Shown here one piece after another: positions 9,311-15,821 of a stretch of 64,000 nt of DNA. The notes below the pieces were generated by a model that was not told the origin of the DNA, searched no databases, and saw only the letters and a list, made by a program, of their open reading frames with translations. Both the position numbers and the translations under genes were made by a program. Positions within the stretch are counted from its first letter, which is position 1. Each line of letters opens with the position of its first letter. Source of the DNA: Jiella avicenniae (GTDB taxonomy: Bacteria; Pseudomonadota; Alphaproteobacteria; Rhizobiales; Rhizobiaceae); assembly GCF_021390325.1 (NCBI RefSeq), contig NZ_JAJUWU010000001.1, forward strand, positions 62,001 to 126,000. The letters run 5' to 3'.

Positions 9311-9709
9311 ATGTCCGAGGCTGTGCAGCCTATAACCCGTCGTGGTCTGTTCGGCCACATCGCCGGGGCCGTCGTTCTCACCAATGCCATCGCAGGCACC
9401 GTCGCGCCGTCGCCGATGGAGGCGCTGATCCGGCGCCACAAGGCGCTGACCGAGGCCTACAACGCGGCGGCCGACATCGAAGAAATCGCGATGACCGAAG
9501 CCGCGACGGCGGCGATGCGGGCGGCCTTCGCCGAACAGGACGCCGCCTTCTTCGATCTCCTGCGGCATCGGCCGCAGACGCTGGAGGAGGCGCAGCGGCG
9601 CTTCGCCTATCTGATCTTCGACCGGTGCTCGCCGTGGAACGGCTGCGAGGCGACGCACGACGAGGCCATCGCGCTGGCCCATTCGATGCTGCCGGAGGCG
9701 GACGCTTGA
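9311..9709 (+). CDS. Small phage protein with twin-arginine-like N-terminus
   Basis: 132 residues. The ATG at 9311 is preferred over 9299 because GGAG (9301-9304) is well placed for it. The N-terminus ITRRGLFGHIAGAVVLTNAI has an RR-G-L-F pattern followed by a weakly hydrophobic stretch and an A-G-T-V-A possible cleavage site, like a Tat signal. The rest is a helical hairpin-like domain with conserved-looking Phe and Asp residues. I do not recognise the family. The stop overlaps the start of the BRO-family gene (TTGA). Export by Tat is inference; it would be unusual for a phage structural product. Confidence 0.5.
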   Translation: MSEAVQPITRRGLFGHIAGAVVLTNAIAGTVAPSPMEALIRRHKALTEAYNAAADIEEIAMTEAATAAMRAAFAEQDAAFFDLLRHRPQTLEEAQRRFAYLIFDRCSPWNGCEATHDEAIALAHSMLPEADA

Positions 9710-10533
9710 GCGGGCTGGCCAATTTTGCCTTCGAGGAACATCTGGTGCGCGTCGTCGAGCGCGACGGTGAGCCGTGGTTCGCCGGCAAGGATGTGTGCCG
9801 CTGCCTCGAAATCGAAAAGCACCATCAAGCGCTCGATAGCCTCGACGGCGACGAGAGGGGTACCTGTACTGTAGGTACCCCCTCGGGACATCAGACGATG
9901 GTCGTCATCTCCGAGCCCGGCGTCTACCGCCTGGTCTTCCGCTCCCGCAAGCCGGCGGCCGAACGGTTCAAGCGTTGGCTGGCGCATGAAGTCATCCCGG
10001 CGATCCGCCGCACCGGCCGCTACGAGACGACGCCGGCGGCGATCGTCGACACCGAAGCGCCGCTGATGGCGAAGGTGGCGGCGGTCCGGCTGGCGCTGCG
10101 GCTGTTCGGCCGGGACAATGCGCGGGCGCTGTGGCACCGGCTGGAGCTGCCGGCGATGGACGCGCCGGCGAGCGACGCGGAGGCCGGCGCGCGGAACGCC
10201 GCCGCCTGTCTGGATCACCTCCTCGCCGCGCGGATCGAAGACGGGCTGACGATCCGGGCGGCGATCGGCGCCGGCGTGCCAGAACGGGACGCGCTGTTTT
10301 CCGCCGGGCTCGGCATCGTCGGACCGCGAACGCGGGAGGAGGGGTTCCAGCTCTTCGTGCCGAACCAGCATCCGGCGCTGTCGCGGCACTTTTCCGGCAC
10401 GCCATGGGCGGACGGGCGCTGGAACGCGGCACTCGCCGGCGGGCGCTTCGCCTGGACGCGGCGGACGATGCGCATCCCCGGCGGATCGAAGCGCGGGATC
10501 GGGATCGATCTTGCCGCCATAGCGGAAACATGA
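9706..10533 (+). CDS. BRO-family (Bro-N) phage protein
   Basis: 275 residues. The TTG at 9706 is chosen because GGAGG (9694-9698) lies seven bases upstream and the codon overlaps the preceding TGA. Residues about 1-105 are a Bro-N domain: VRVVERDGEPWFAGKDVCRC at the front, then VVISEPGVYRLVFRSRKPAA and FKRWLAHEVIPAIRRTGRYE, all hallmark strings. The C-terminal 160 residues contain a helical stretch and a basic end of unknown role. Bro-N proteins bind DNA and many act as antirepressors. Finding one among late structural genes, before the tail fibre, is less usual than near the lysogeny switch, which is not in this window. Confidence 0.8.
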   Translation: MSGLANFAFEEHLVRVVERDGEPWFAGKDVCRCLEIEKHHQALDSLDGDERGTCTVGTPSGHQTMVVISEPGVYRLVFRSRKPAAERFKRWLAHEVIPAIRRTGRYETTPAAIVDTEAPLMAKVAAVRLALRLFGRDNARALWHRLELPAMDAPASDAEAGARNAAACLDHLLAARIEDGLTIRAAIGAGVPERDALFSAGLGIVGPRTREEGFQLFVPNQHPALSRHFSGTPWADGRWNAALAGGRFAWTRRTMRIPGGSKRGIGIDLAAIAET

Positions 10534-10706: not shown

Positions 10707-13442
10707 ATGAGCAACGCGCCGCTTTATTCCGACGACCGTCAGGTGATCGCCGCCCCGCCGGCCAATACCACGGTGCTCGACTACGATTTCGAAATCCGCA
10801 GCGAAGCGGCCATGCGGGTGCTGCGAGAGCGTGGCGGCGCGACTGAAACGCTGACGCTCAACGTCGATTACGTGTTTCCGACCGGGCCGGGCGATGAGAG
10901 CGGGGGATCGCTGCAGCTCGTCATGCCGTCGCTCGACGGAGACGTCTACACGATGCAGGGCCATTCGCCGGTCGAACGGCGGTCGGACTTCCTGCCGGGG
11001 CTCGCCTTCGCGACGGCGAAGATCAACGCCGATCTCGACTATCTGACGATGATCGCGCAGGAGCAACGCCGCGACGTCGCTGCCGTCGAAGCGGGGCTGC
11101 CGGTCCTCACCGAGGCCCTGCGGACGGAAAGCCAGCAGCGGAGCGCCGCGGATGCTGCCGAGACCGCCGCTCGCCTCGCCGCAGATGCGGCGATCGTCGC
11201 CGACTACCGGGCGCGCCTGGTCGACTACGTCAACCAGGGCAACGTCCCGATCTACGCGACGATCGACATCATCCGGGGCGCGGACGGTGCGGGCCTGACG
11301 ATCCCCGAGGGGCAGCCGATCTACGTCTACGGACAGGCTGCAGTCGAGGATGGCCTCGGCGGGTTTTTCGTTCCGGCCGACACCGGGTCCAGCCGATTTT
11401 TCGACGACGCGTCCGGTCAACGTTTCTGGTGGCTGTCCCGGCCCGGCCTGCCGAGCGCGGCCGGGTCCGACGACCTCCTGGAGTTCGAGCGCAACGCCAC
11501 CCGCTACGCCCGCCGCGTCGAGGACCTGTTCGCCGAGCGCAACGTGCTCACGGTCGCGACGCCCGACGACATCGCGGCCGTCGATACGGCGTTCCCCGCA
11601 CCGGTCATCAACGTCCTCGGACACCCGACCTCGCCGCCGGCCTCCATCGCCTGGGAGCGCGTCGACACCGAGCCGACGTTTCCGCTCAAGCGGACCGACG
11701 CCAAGGGGCGGCACTATCGGCCGAAGCGCGGGCTCTACAAGCTCGAAGAGTTCGGGCCGCTGAAGCCCGGCGGCAACATGAACGCTGCCTGGAACGACTT
11801 CGTGGCGATCGCCAAGGAGGATTATTTCGGGGTCTGCCAGCTCCCCATCTATCCGGTCTACAGCGAGGAGAGACTGACGCGCATCTTCGATGCTCCTCCG
11901 TCCACGGCCAGCTACAAGCCTTACACGACATTCGGCATCTTCGGGGTGAGCAACGGGCTGAGGCAAAGCCAGATCGTCTTTCCCGAGGGCGTGACGGACG
12001 CCGGCATCTACATCGAGCCGCAGGCCAACAACCAGGTCGGCGGCGGCGCTGGCTTCACGATCCTCAGCGAGCAGCCTGCCCACGCCGACGACGATCCTGC
12101 GACGGACGCGCTCGCGTCCAACACCTCCGGCATCGGACTGGAGGTCGTCGCCAATGTCACGCCCGGCGGGGCTGGATGGGGCTCGCCACGGCAACCCTCG
12201 TGGGTATGGGACATGATCAACGTCGGCGGGTCTCTGCCGTTCGGCGGCAAGATACGCGGTCGCTGGAAAGCCGGCTTCCGCTTCGAAAATTTGTGGATAC
12301 CGCGCATCAGCAACGCGTGGGCCAACACGAACCTGTTCTACGACAAGCAGTACAAGCAAAAGTTCTTCGAGGCCGGAAACGGCTTCACATTCCTGAACTG
12401 CTACGGGCCGCAGTGGTTCAACATCGACTACGCCGGACCCTGGGATACGGGCATCCTCGCCCTGTTCAATGCGGCGTCGTGGGACGGCGAGGGCGTATTC
12501 GGCAAGCGTTTCGGCGGTGCCGGAGGGCCACGCCGTGGCGTCTACATCGACCACACCAGTCCGGTTCACGCCACGGGGTACATCAAAGGCTTCGGGGGAT
12601 ATCTCAGCGATTTCGACATCAACGCCTTCGAGACGGCGATGTATGTCGGCAATCTTGCCGGGCTGTTCATCTCGGAGGGGACGCTTCTGCTCGGCATTCC
12701 GCCAAGCGTCAATCCGGGGCAGCTCACCTACGACGCAGAGACATTTTTGCAACTACACAACACCCGGAACGTGACTGTCCGTGGCGTGAAAATCCCGATG
12801 GGCGGGCACTACACGTCGCCGACGAAGAAATCCACGGCGGTCAAGTTCACCGGCGATGCAATGTACAACACGATCGACGACTTGACCGTCCGAGCGAACG
12901 GTTACGGCATCGTCGACGAGACGACGGGCGGCGACGGGCAGAACTATGTCGATCGGTACACGCCGAACGGCACACCTTCGATCGGAACCGGGAACCTGCA
13001 GCCCGGATACGAGATCGTCGACAATGGCCGGCTCACCGGCCCGGCGGTCAAGAAGACGGCCGTGCCGACGCTGAACCAGGCGACACCTGCAACCGGCGTC
13101 ACCTATGCGGTGCAGACCGCAAACTACGTCTACGACCCCCGGCGCAAGCGCTGCAAGCTGTGGGGCCGGCTCACCGTCGGCGACGTCGGGACCGGAGGCG
13201 CAGGCGCGACCAGCCTGGTCATTCCCGGAATGCCGTTGCCGGCGTCTCCCGGCGATCAGATCGTCCGCGTCGAGCAGGCCACCGGGTTCGGCGCTGCCGC
13301 GCCATCCAACGGGGTGATGCTGAACTCGGCCATCGCCCTCTACATCAGGGCGGCTTCGGGCAACTCCGGCGGCGCACTGCCTTGGGCCAACGTGCAGGCG
13401 GGCAGCAGCTTCCTCTTCGAAGCCGAATATCGGACCGCCTAA
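10707..13442 (+). CDS. Tail fibre / tailspike protein
   Basis: 911 residues. Residues about 1-140 resemble the T7-type tail-fibre head-attachment domain: TTVLDYDFEI at the front, then an AFATAKINADLDYLTMIAQE segment leading into a coiled region rich in Ala and Glu (about 125-175). The centre (about 190-780) is a long, glycine- and aromatic-rich region typical of a right-handed beta-helix, with repeated short beta-strand segments ending in DDLTVRANGYGIVDE. The last 110 residues form a separate beta domain. It should bind, and possibly cleave, a surface polysaccharide. No obvious Shine-Dalgarno site precedes the ATG, which may be reached by coupling from the twelve-codon frame ending at 10710. 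Confidence 0.7.
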   Translation: MSNAPLYSDDRQVIAAPPANTTVLDYDFEIRSEAAMRVLRERGGATETLTLNVDYVFPTGPGDESGGSLQLVMPSLDGDVYTMQGHSPVERRSDFLPGLAFATAKINADLDYLTMIAQEQRRDVAAVEAGLPVLTEALRTESQQRSAADAAETAARLAADAAIVADYRARLVDYVNQGNVPIYATIDIIRGADGAGLTIPEGQPIYVYGQAAVEDGLGGFFVPADTGSSRFFDDASGQRFWWLSRPGLPSAAGSDDLLEFERNATRYARRVEDLFAERNVLTVATPDDIAAVDTAFPAPVINVLGHPTSPPASIAWERVDTEPTFPLKRTDAKGRHYRPKRGLYKLEEFGPLKPGGNMNAAWNDFVAIAKEDYFGVCQLPIYPVYSEERLTRIFDAPPSTASYKPYTTFGIFGVSNGLRQSQIVFPEGVTDAGIYIEPQANNQVGGGAGFTILSEQPAHADDDPATDALASNTSGIGLEVVANVTPGGAGWGSPRQPSWVWDMINVGGSLPFGGKIRGRWKAGFRFENLWIPRISNAWANTNLFYDKQYKQKFFEAGNGFTFLNCYGPQWFNIDYAGPWDTGILALFNAASWDGEGVFGKRFGGAGGPRRGVYIDHTSPVHATGYIKGFGGYLSDFDINAFETAMYVGNLAGLFISEGTLLLGIPPSVNPGQLTYDAETFLQLHNTRNVTVRGVKIPMGGHYTSPTKKSTAVKFTGDAMYNTIDDLTVRANGYGIVDETTGGDGQNYVDRYTPNGTPSIGTGNLQPGYEIVDNGRLTGPAVKKTAVPTLNQATPATGVTYAVQTANYVYDPRRKRCKLWGRLTVGDVGTGGAGATSLVIPGMPLPASPGDQIVRVEQATGFGAAAPSNGVMLNSAIALYIRAASGNSGGALPWANVQAGSSFLFEAEYRTA

Positions 13443-13464
13443 CCCCAGAGAAAGGTCCCGCGCC

Positions 13465-13995
13465 ATGCGGAAATACGAACGCATTCCCATCGTCGTGGAC
13501 GCGGTGCAATTCACCGGCGGGGCCGAGAGCGCCGCAGAGGTCATTGCCGCTGCCGGCCTCGGCGACAGCGCCTACCTCAAGCTGGCGGACGAAGCCGAGG
13601 CCGTCAGCGTTGCGACCCTCGCCGGTGCCGTCCTCATGCGCCCCGGTCAATGGCTCGTCCCGATCGGCCGTTGGGTCACGGACGGCGTCGAACTCAAGGC
13701 CGATTGGGCGATCCTTTCCGACGCGGAGTTTCAAGCGAACTATCGGCCCGCCGGGACGGGCGACGAGGCCTGCGATTTCGGCAAGGCATTCGCCGCCGTC
13801 CGCAATGGCGGCAAGGCCCGGCGCGACGCCTGGGCGGACGGCATGTCGATCTATTGGGAGCCGCACTGGTCTCCCGGTAAAGATGCAAAGGCGAGCCAGC
13901 CGATGTTCGCGCTGACGCTGGTCGACGGTTCGGTCGTGCCCTGGCGTCCGTCCGATACGGATTTTTCCGCCACCGACTGGCGCGTGTTCGGCTGA
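13465..13995 (+). CDS. Two-domain phage protein with C-terminal Tad2-like (DUF2829) domain
   Basis: 176 residues. Residues 1-90 match the small phage domain beginning K-Y-E-R-I-P-I-V-V-D-A-V-Q-F-T-G, ending in a W-L-V-P-I-G and E-L-K segment. Residues about 103-176 match DUF2829: DFGKAFAAVRNGGKARRDAW, then an I-Y-W strand, then VPWRPSDTDFSATDWRVFG, which is the family hallmark. Characterised DUF2829 members (Tad2) bind and sequester signalling nucleotides made by Thoeris TIR proteins, and some related nucleotides. The conserved R-x-x-W and W-x-x-S-x-x-D-x-x-A-x-D-W positions are all present. The fusion to the N-terminal domain and the late-operon position next to the endolysin are noteworthy. 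Anti-defence function here is inference from the family. Confidence 0.75.
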   Translation: MRKYERIPIVVDAVQFTGGAESAAEVIAAAGLGDSAYLKLADEAEAVSVATLAGAVLMRPGQWLVPIGRWVTDGVELKADWAILSDAEFQANYRPAGTGDEACDFGKAFAAVRNGGKARRDAWADGMSIYWEPHWSPGKDAKASQPMFALTLVDGSVVPWRPSDTDFSATDWRVFG

Positions 13996-14019
13996 GGCTG
14001 CGTAGGCGAGGAGCAATCC

Positions 14020-14934
14020 ATGGATTTTCGGAACTTCCGCGGCGCCGCCAAGCGGATCGACGATCTCGATCTGCCGCGGCTCGGGCATCTGATCGGCGTC
14101 GGCGAAGACGAGATCCACGCCGTGCTCGATGCCGAGACGAACGGGCACGGCTTCGACGCCCTCGGGCGTCCGCGCATGCTGTTCGAGCCGCACATCTTCT
14201 GGCGCGAGCTTCCCAAGGGCAAGCGCGGCGAGGCACAGCGCCTCGGCCTCGCCTATCCGAAGTGGCGGCGGAACTATCCGGCCGACAGCTATCCGCGATT
14301 GAAACAGGCGATGGCGATCGACGCGACGGCGGCGCTGCGCGCGGCATCGTGGGGGCTCGGCCAGGTGATGGGCTTCAACCACAAACTCGCCGGATACGAC
14401 ACCGTCGACGAGATGGTGACGGCGTTCATGGCCGACGAGGAGAACCATCTCAAGGCGATGGTCGAATTCATCGTCTCGGCCGGGCTCGACGACGAGCTGC
14501 GCCGCCACGACTGGCGCGGCTTCGCGCGGGGCTACAACGGCCCCGGCTTCGAGAAGAACGGCTATGACGACAAGCTGGCGGCCGCCTGGCGCCGCTGGGC
14601 GAAGATCCCCGATACCGCCTGGTCGCCGGAAGAGGCGGCGCCCGTGCCCGTCCCGTCGCCGGCGCCGCGTGATCGGGCCGGCAGTGCGGCGCCGGATCTG
14701 ATCGCCAGCGTGAGCAAGGCGATCGGCGCGGCCAAGGGGGCGGCGCAAGGCTCGATCGCCGGCATCGGGACGCCGACCGCCATCGCCGGCACGCTGAAAG
14801 CCTTCGGCTGGTTTCCGGATCTGACGCCGGAACAGATCATCATCGGCTTCGGCCTGGTCACGCTCGTCGTCGCCACGGCAACGGCCGCCTTCTTCGCCTT
14901 CCGGCGCGCCTACGACGCGCCGGCCAACAAGTGA
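14020..14934 (+). CDS. Endolysin, N-acetylmuramidase family, with C-terminal membrane helix
   Basis: 304 residues. Residues about 15-195 are an N-acetylmuramidase (DUF3380) domain: EDEIHAVLDAETNGHGFDAL holds the conserved Glu region, then RPRMLFEPHIFWREL, ASWGLGQVMGFNHKLAGYD and ARGYNGPGF. A Pro/Ala-rich linker (about 205-225) and a small helical region follow, then a hydrophobic helix, residues 273-294, and a short basic tail. The membrane helix at the C-terminus is odd for an endolysin; it could tether the enzyme until the membrane is depolarised. The spanin-like genes start seven bases downstream, so this is the lysis cassette. Confidence 0.8.
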   Translation: MDFRNFRGAAKRIDDLDLPRLGHLIGVGEDEIHAVLDAETNGHGFDALGRPRMLFEPHIFWRELPKGKRGEAQRLGLAYPKWRRNYPADSYPRLKQAMAIDATAALRAASWGLGQVMGFNHKLAGYDTVDEMVTAFMADEENHLKAMVEFIVSAGLDDELRRHDWRGFARGYNGPGFEKNGYDDKLAAAWRRWAKIPDTAWSPEEAAPVPVPSPAPRDRAGSAAPDLIASVSKAIGAAKGAAQGSIAGIGTPTAIAGTLKAFGWFPDLTPEQIIIGFGLVTLVVATATAAFFAFRRAYDAPANK

Positions 14935-14941
14935 GGACGCG

Positions 14942-15181
14942 ATGGGCATCCAGTTCAAGGTCCTCGTCGCGGCTCTCCTCGCCGTCGGCATCGGCATTGC
15001 CGGCGCCTGGGTCGCCAACACGCTCAAGAAGGAAGGCAGGAATGAAGAACGCGCCCGGATCTCCGATCGCAGCCGGCAGGCCGGCGACGCTGGCGAGGAT
15101 GCTCGCCTGTCTCGTCGCGAGTGCGTGGCTGGCGGGATGCGCTACGAGTTCGCTACCGGCCGATGCCTCGGCGGTGAATGA
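14942..15181 (+). CDS. Short i-spanin-like (Rz-type) membrane protein
   Basis: 79 residues. An N-terminal helix (VLVAALLAVGIGIAGAWVA, about residues 7-25) is followed by a charged segment rich in Arg, Glu and Asp. It lies directly after the endolysin, and a lipoprotein gene is embedded in its 3' half in another frame. That nested arrangement is the signature of Rz/Rz1 spanin pairs. It is shorter than most Rz proteins, so the periplasmic coiled coil would be short. The call depends on context as much as on sequence. Confidence 0.45.
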   Translation: MGIQFKVLVAALLAVGIGIAGAWVANTLKKEGRNEERARISDRSRQAGDAGEDARLSRRECVAGGMRYEFATGRCLGGE

Positions 15182-15696: not shown

Positions 15697-15750
15697 GATT
15701 TTTGCGCGGTCTAATTCATAAGCTTTTGATTTTACTGAGATAATTGATAA

Positions 15751-15795
15751 CTCTTAATCAGCGGGTCGTAGGTTCGATCCCTACATCACCCACCA
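15751..15795 (+). other. attachment site: 3' part of tRNA-Lys(CUU)
   Basis: These 45 bases run from the anticodon loop CTCTTAA through the T arm (GTAGG / CCTAC stem at 15768-15772 and 15780-15784) to the acceptor 3' strand ATCACCC, the discriminator A and CCA. The 5' side (15697-15750) is AT-rich and does not pair as a tRNA, so no full gene is present. This is what an integrase that uses the 3' end of a tRNA gene leaves at the far junction. The intact tRNA-Lys gene should lie at the other end of the prophage, left of the window. Confidence 0.8.
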
Positions 15796-15803
15796 TTCTT
15801 TTC

Positions 15804-15821
15804 AACGGCTTAGGCCGTTTT
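15804..15821 (+). terminator. Hairpin after the tRNA remnant
   Basis: AACGGC, loop TTAG, GCCGTT, followed by TT. It sits nine bases after the CCA end and was probably the terminator of the original tRNA-Lys gene before integration. Confidence 0.5.

Follow-up and report, generated by a model that had tools for sequence, protein, structure and literature searches.

A prophage gene of Jiella avicenniae joins a divergent phage domain to a Tad2-like domain with an altered pocket loop

Here, we describe a 176-residue prophage protein of Jiella avicenniae in which a divergent relative of a very common phage domain is fused to a C-terminal Tad2-like domain, and we propose, with a probability of about 0.55, that it acts as an accessory nucleotide sponge to which we assign no particular ligand. 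Tad2 proteins are anti-defence sponges, and one further member of the family is therefore to be expected. Both the family and the anti-defence idea are already known; the domain and its fusion are real, and what is new is the fusion together with a change in the ligand pocket. Through this protein, Tad2 is linked in a testable way to a phage domain that is very common, and its pocket loop differs from the loop in the solved members shown. Should the fusion partner have a role in counter-defence, a hypothesis would become available for many phage genes of unknown function.

The open reading frame (ORF) encoding this protein is real and intact. A sequence-only reading of the DNA had placed the gene beside lysis genes, and its coordinates, quoted motifs and position between a tail fibre-like gene and an endolysin gene were all confirmed (Table 1). 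Gaps of 22 bp and 24 bp, respectively, separate it from these two neighbors, and its third-position G+C is 0.81 versus 0.85 and 0.89 in theirs. A longer ORF on the other strand (13345-15027) overlaps it, and the plus-strand product has family matches independently. The protein carries the motifs K3-Y-E-R-I-P-I-V-V-D-A-V-Q-F-T-G18, A118-R-R-D-A-W123 and P162-S-D-T-D-F-S-A-T-D-W172. PADLOC and NCBIfam searches with it returned no match, and a promoter scan from the tail fibre gene through the endolysin gene, covering the sigma-70-type consensus, found no site of that type.

Table 1. Features in and around the two-domain gene; positions are those of the window, the whole 64,000-nucleotide stretch of DNA that was analysed
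Feature	Position	Strand	Remarks
Upstream tail fibre-like protein, 911 aa	10707..13442	+	phrog_13893 E 2.7e-5, first ~120 residues only
Two-domain protein gene (N-terminal phage domain + Tad2-like domain)	13465..13995	+	176 aa, ATG start
N-terminal domain, residues 1-99	13465..13761	+	Divergent MKYRKKPVVIEA phage family member; profile match residues 3-65; most of the signature's second half lost
Tad2-like domain (PF11195), residues 104-174	13774..13986	+	Profile, solved-chain and fold matches
Altered beta1-beta2 loop, residues 122-127	13828..13845	+	A-W-A-D-G-M vs consensus G-W-N-G-K-G-M
Downstream endolysin (N-acetylmuramidase, PF11860), 304 aa	14020..14934	+	PF11860 E 8.4e-53; phrog matches
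Possible Rz-like spanin, 79 aa (weak)	14942..15181	+	phrog_1026 E 0.0095
Right att copy, 66-bp direct repeat with 3' end of tRNA-Lys(CTT)	15750..15815	+	Other copy 38.4 kb upstream, outside the window, contig about 39348-39413

Judged by profile and predicted fold, the C-terminal half is a Tad2-like domain, far above chance. The hmmscan match to PF11195 had an E-value of 6.1e-13 and 49.5 bits (curated cut-off 25), the best solved-chain matches by phmmer were ModTad2 entries 9eib (2.1e-6) and 8v3e (2.4e-6), and a four-sequence profile reached seven distinct solved Tad2/AcrIIA7 sequences. The full-length monomer, modeled with AlphaFold2 from 57 input sequences (with 33 of 33 N-domain-only rows aligned on the N half), reached a mean pLDDT of 88.2 and a pTM of 0.63, which we take to mean that both domains, and not their mutual orientation, are well defined in the model. 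In agreement with the structure anticipated by the sequence-only reading, all 24 Foldseek matches in the PDB with E<=0.001 were Tad2 or AcrIIA7 entries, the top match being 8v3e_B (TM 0.85 by target length), and Foldseek on predicted viral proteins retrieved many Tad2-like proteins of 120-270 aa.

The earlier claim that this half bears all DUF2829/Tad2 hallmarks therefore stood for the motifs, the PF11195 profile and the predicted fold, but was too strong where the pocket is concerned, as the G-W-N-G-K loop is lost. According to PMC12043709, the gcADPR pocket of Tad2 is made up of loop beta1-beta2, loop beta3-beta4, strand beta4, loop beta4-alpha3 and helix alpha3, and a Tad2 insertion is tied to cyclic dinucleotide binding. 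In the first of these loops the query reads A122-W123-A124-gap-D125-G126-M127, one residue shorter than GWNGKGM and with its G, N and K gone. Further along, D164 replaces the Q before T-D (131/142 homologues) and S168 an L (139/142), and W123, G126, M127, W160, S163, D166, D171 and W172 are kept. The loop is highly conserved in our alignment of 143 distinct homologues (G 142, W 142, N 136, G 140, K 117, G 123 and M 118 among the 142 with a residue in these columns), a sample biased toward this loop because its loci were fetched with patterns that include it. GWNGKGM also stands in all five solved sequences shown, of seven distinct ones. In a pattern-free set of 11 PF11195 members (L257 and L258 counted once; L009, scoring below the cut-off, and the locus of the query itself excluded), GWNG occurs in only four, so that departures from this loop are not rare beyond the solved members shown.

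We chose the G-W-N-G-K-G-M loop as the mark of a functional Tad2 sponge; it is absent from the query and is not universal in PF11195. The mark of a cyclic-dinucleotide-type Tad2, a long insertion between beta2 and beta5, is likewise absent: the insertion is short and without a helix in the model, from which alpha2 is missing, and short insertions are also found in many members among the loci sampled. Since the long insertion and its helix are missing, cyclic dinucleotides would be unlikely ligands, and the counter-action against CBASS that had been suggested is improbable on this anatomy. An ADP-ribose derivative is a possible ligand, and a loss of nucleotide binding is possible as well. Retention of the ligand pocket, on which the sequence-only reading had made its proposal depend, is thus doubtful, with the W and D positions kept but the beta1-beta2 loop, Q and L changed.

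Among solved proteins, ModTad2 of a Myroides odoratus prophage (8v3e and 9eib, the latter titled as a hisADPR complex) is the best match of the C-terminal domain in both sequence and fold. In contrast to the query, its chain of 88-89 aa has no such N-domain, keeps GWNGKGM and has a longer insertion. The next-closest solved relative, SPO1 Tad2 (8sme, 8smf, 8smg, 8wje), has the same fold at 18-24% identity in the Foldseek rows, and the titles of 8smf and 8smg name gcADPR; according to PMC11722364, it binds gcADPR and not 3'3'-cGAMP. As described in PMC12043709, SPO1 Tad2 uses alpha2 in dimer contacts, the helix that is missing in the query model.

The fusion of the Tad2-like domain to a second phage domain, as first read from the sequence, was borne out by an N-domain profile and by hhalign. 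The profile comprised 80 viral loci kept from a scan of viral contigs with L171, a member from another genome of the same order, for which 596 of 600 pattern stretches were confirmed among the matches listed. It recognized residues 3-65 of the query with 23.3 bits (E 5.7e-7 among 161 sequences), and hhalign gave E 1.7e-9 in one single comparison. These residues thus weakly match a very common phage domain, and the phrog matches of residues 1-99 (phrog_419, E 4.6e-5; phrog_6363, E 2e-4, residues 1-93; phrog_19511; phrog_1810) are all families of unknown function. The family consensus runs from K-Y-R-K-K-P-V-V-I-E-A through T-L-E-G to a C-terminal signature, and the query keeps much of its first half and little of its second. 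Profile similarity to the MKYRKKPVVIEA family (phrog_6363/419 type) is present but the C-terminal signature is not: the query reads ADWAILSDAEFQANYRP and retains only F89 and Y93 of the invariant or near-invariant residues in this stretch, for which reason we call its N-domain a divergent relative.

A canonical member, L271, was modeled at pLDDT 92.4, and its N-domain found no PDB match at E<=0.001; L171 matched no Pfam model over the cut-off and PGDYG only below threshold, and a literature search on PGDYG with phage found nothing. The domain is modular. Proteins of Klebsiella, Proteus and Erwinia phages were considered as extra fusions and dropped, because in the three read (KpS8, Mydo and Hena1, Vequintavirinae) the N-domain is followed by a C-terminal part unlike Tad2. 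The Vequintavirinae N-domain genes (L440:424-4235; L441; L442) lie near DNA ligase and nucleotide pyrophosphohydrolase genes, with a Sir2 gene in KpS8 and Hena1.

With parts of the family signature lost from both halves of the query (the pocket loop in one, the C-terminal end of the N-domain in the other), the Tad2 fold may have been kept while its function changed, with the domain binding a protein partner or a different small ligand instead of immune nucleotides, or the gene may be decaying cargo. This explanation, which we regard as possible if rather doubtful, would also fit the N-domain score of 23 bits versus 84-99 in seven other members, as well as the divergent loops that are usual in pattern-free PF11195 members. 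However, an intact ORF, a confident model and the conserved main W and D positions make simple decay unlikely, and a new immune ligand could explain the divergence equally well.

The architecture search proposed in the sequence-only reading found the same fusion elsewhere. Across 256 viral loci (18,636 stop-to-stop ORFs), the N-domain profile matched 98 ORFs and the Tad2 profile 167, with both in one frame in two (L268 and L274), counts that are not natural frequencies because the loci were fetched with either domain as bait. The Latilactobacillus phage TMW 1.2272 P1 carries the same fusion (L264:2845-3393). Looser arrangements comprise L270, in which the domains lie on neighboring genes (Tad2 first, N-domain second), L279, in which they are about 3 kb apart, and Ruegeria phage 45A6, in which a Tad2 gene, itself bearing the other kind of N-domain discussed below, is directly followed by an N-domain gene. 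Ruegeria phage 45A6 and L270 were scored as neighboring genes rather than fusions, and L071, with a possible, weak N-domain, was left out of the fusion count. The Latilactobacillus phage protein, L268 and L274 resemble the query in that a single frame runs from an MKYRKKP-type domain into a Tad2-like domain, but unlike the query they keep WNGKGM and YPCKPD or YPCRAD; the L274 frame extends about 104 residues further upstream, and in this comparison the query is 25% identical to P0001.

Far commoner before Tad2 is a GTKLI...SWSP domain: of 380 phage records that match a two-domain query of this kind, 90 span at least 80% of it, and the corresponding numbers for the Latilactobacillus query are three at E 1e-5 and two at 1e-8. 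The previous statement that most described members are single-domain is weakened, as two-domain DUF2829 proteins, such as those of phrog_872, are common in phages. As in the query, a small domain precedes the Tad2-like one in these proteins, but hhalign detected no sequence homology between their kind of N-domain and that of the query (E 0.03 and 0.11, probability under 2%). No relative of the whole protein was confirmed in viral contigs or in genome contigs; ten matches among 50,697 phage records covered the Tad2 part only, at <=38% identity. In 398 genomes of the phylum, where otherwise the host alone matched, one marginal candidate (G202; E 9.7e-4, 30% identity, internal TAG) was set aside. 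A literature search on Tad2 (DUF2829, Thoeris, prophage fusion, His-ADPR, AcrIIA7) met the fusion in no title or abstract start, a scope that leaves the main Tad2 papers outside and does not establish absence from print.

The gene lies in a 38.4-kb prophage bounded by the 66-bp repeat in tRNA-Lys(CTT), which encodes from left to right an integrase, a primase-like protein, terminase, head-tail connector, major head, tail and virion structural proteins, an anti-repressor, the tail fibre-like protein, the 176-aa protein and the endolysin, a gene set that we read as temperate and podovirus-like. The anti-repressor gene (Bro-N, PF02498; window 9625-10533) sits amid late structural genes. A 564-aa protein adjoining the prophage, in our reading a FliF-type flagellar protein, is 97% identical to a Jiella pacifica protein, which places the host in or close to Jiella (Aurantimonadaceae).

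Given its place between the tail fibre-like and endolysin genes, with short gaps on either side, the protein could be a virion component or a lysis regulator, and the sequence-only reading had likewise taken the late position to suggest production with structural proteins, or a role in the virion or in a later infection. Comparison did not support this. The whole protein matched the host alone among 101 genomes searched, and a virion protein of the prophage matched 15 of 251 genomes, host included. In related prophage stretches taken from six of the other 14 genomes (7.5-16 kb downstream, one ended by a contig end), a Tad2-like or N-domain ORF was present in none of the six, nor was one found in the flanks of any of 53 viral loci with related endolysins (45 with 4 kb upstream, three with <1 kb). 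When both scans were rerun without speed filters and with the query as positive control, only the control rose above the inclusion threshold; the Tad2 profile also recovers four divergent members. The idea of a lysis hotspot was rejected on these counts. The lysis-side place is therefore not conserved, and the gene is sporadic accessory cargo whose position beside lysis genes was found in this prophage only. One fused relative (L268) has an integrase gene nearby and another (L264) lies upstream of terminase genes; comparison thus lends no support to a role in the virion or specifically late, and we consider a structural or lysis-related protein improbable.

An anti-CRISPR of the AcrIIA7 kind, sharing the DUF2829 domain reported for AcrIIA7 in PMC6739104, is a very remote prospect: AcrIIA7 structures (8kbi, 8kbj, 8kbk) are among the fold matches, but their insertion is much longer than that of the query, and their solved sequence was deposited as HgmTad2 with 1',2'-cADPR as well (8kbj); the title of 8kbk names a complex with 1',2'-cADPR and cGG. 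Among AcrIIA7 homologues, PMC6739104 finds just one in a genome that carries self-targeting II-A spacers.

For an accessory sponge, the question is which defence it would meet. It had been suggested that the host or its competitors may carry a TIR- or CBASS-type system. For the host, this found no support among the families sought, as its genome (97.65% complete, with one PF11195 match) has no TIR_2, SMODS or ThsB_TIR match, but TIR and ThsB-type genes do occur in congeners: TIR_2 matched six and ThsB_TIR one of ten genomes of the genus, the negative host among them. In congener G006, genes for ThsB (PADLOC PDLC00433, 1.9e-69; PF08937, 7.4e-28), a second TIR protein (PDLC00434, 3.4e-84) and a SLOG cluster 3 protein (PF18180, 3.5e-69) stand side by side on one strand (L437:7212-9569), a candidate Thoeris-like cluster by its profile matches. 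Because of this cluster, a Thoeris-like system is plausible in hosts near this one, and we infer that the 176-aa protein may counter such a system.

We propose that an accessory gene of a temperate, podovirus-like prophage gives rise to a two-domain protein with a diverged Tad2-fold C-terminal half, which would be produced along with the tail and lysis genes as a stoichiometric sponge. This timing is proposed because the gaps to the neighboring genes are short; the oligomer, ligand and function of the protein are likewise proposed, whereas its ORF, domain membership and predicted fold, together with its place in the prophage and its sporadic occurrence, are computed results. The sponge would bind an immune signal derived from a nucleotide (an ADP-ribose derivative that a TIR enzyme makes, and not a cyclic dinucleotide) and withhold it from its effector, with the N-terminal domain probably supplying assembly, stability or a second contact. 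As ThsB1 recognises the phage major head protein, according to PMC12043709, a late-made sponge would coincide with the trigger. We favor the nucleotide sponge because the PF11195 match is over the cut-off, ModTad2 and SPO1 Tad2 are the nearest solved relatives, and W, G, M, S and D residues are kept; sporadic presence is as expected of cargo, and the genus carries TIR_2 as well as ThsB/TIR/SLOG genes. It is weakened by the altered pocket loop, the changes of Q to D164 and L to S168, the alpha2 helix missing in the model, a host with no match to the three families, and the lack of a PADLOC match for the protein itself.

A more speculative version, which we hold to be unlikely, is that the altered loop has adapted to a TIR product not bound by known Tad2, such as the signal made by a TIR-TIR-SLOG cluster of the G006 type, and that the N-domain in its turn serves counter-defence as a module for ligand binding or targeting. 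If so, the fusion would be a clue to the function of the whole N-domain family.

Tad2-like genes also occur in multiples. On the viral contig L274 (2912-4444), two lie close by, one with and one without the N-domain, and a single cellular genome (G615, L256-L260) holds five PF11195 matches, several with an extra C-terminal region and two on one 4.2-kb contig.
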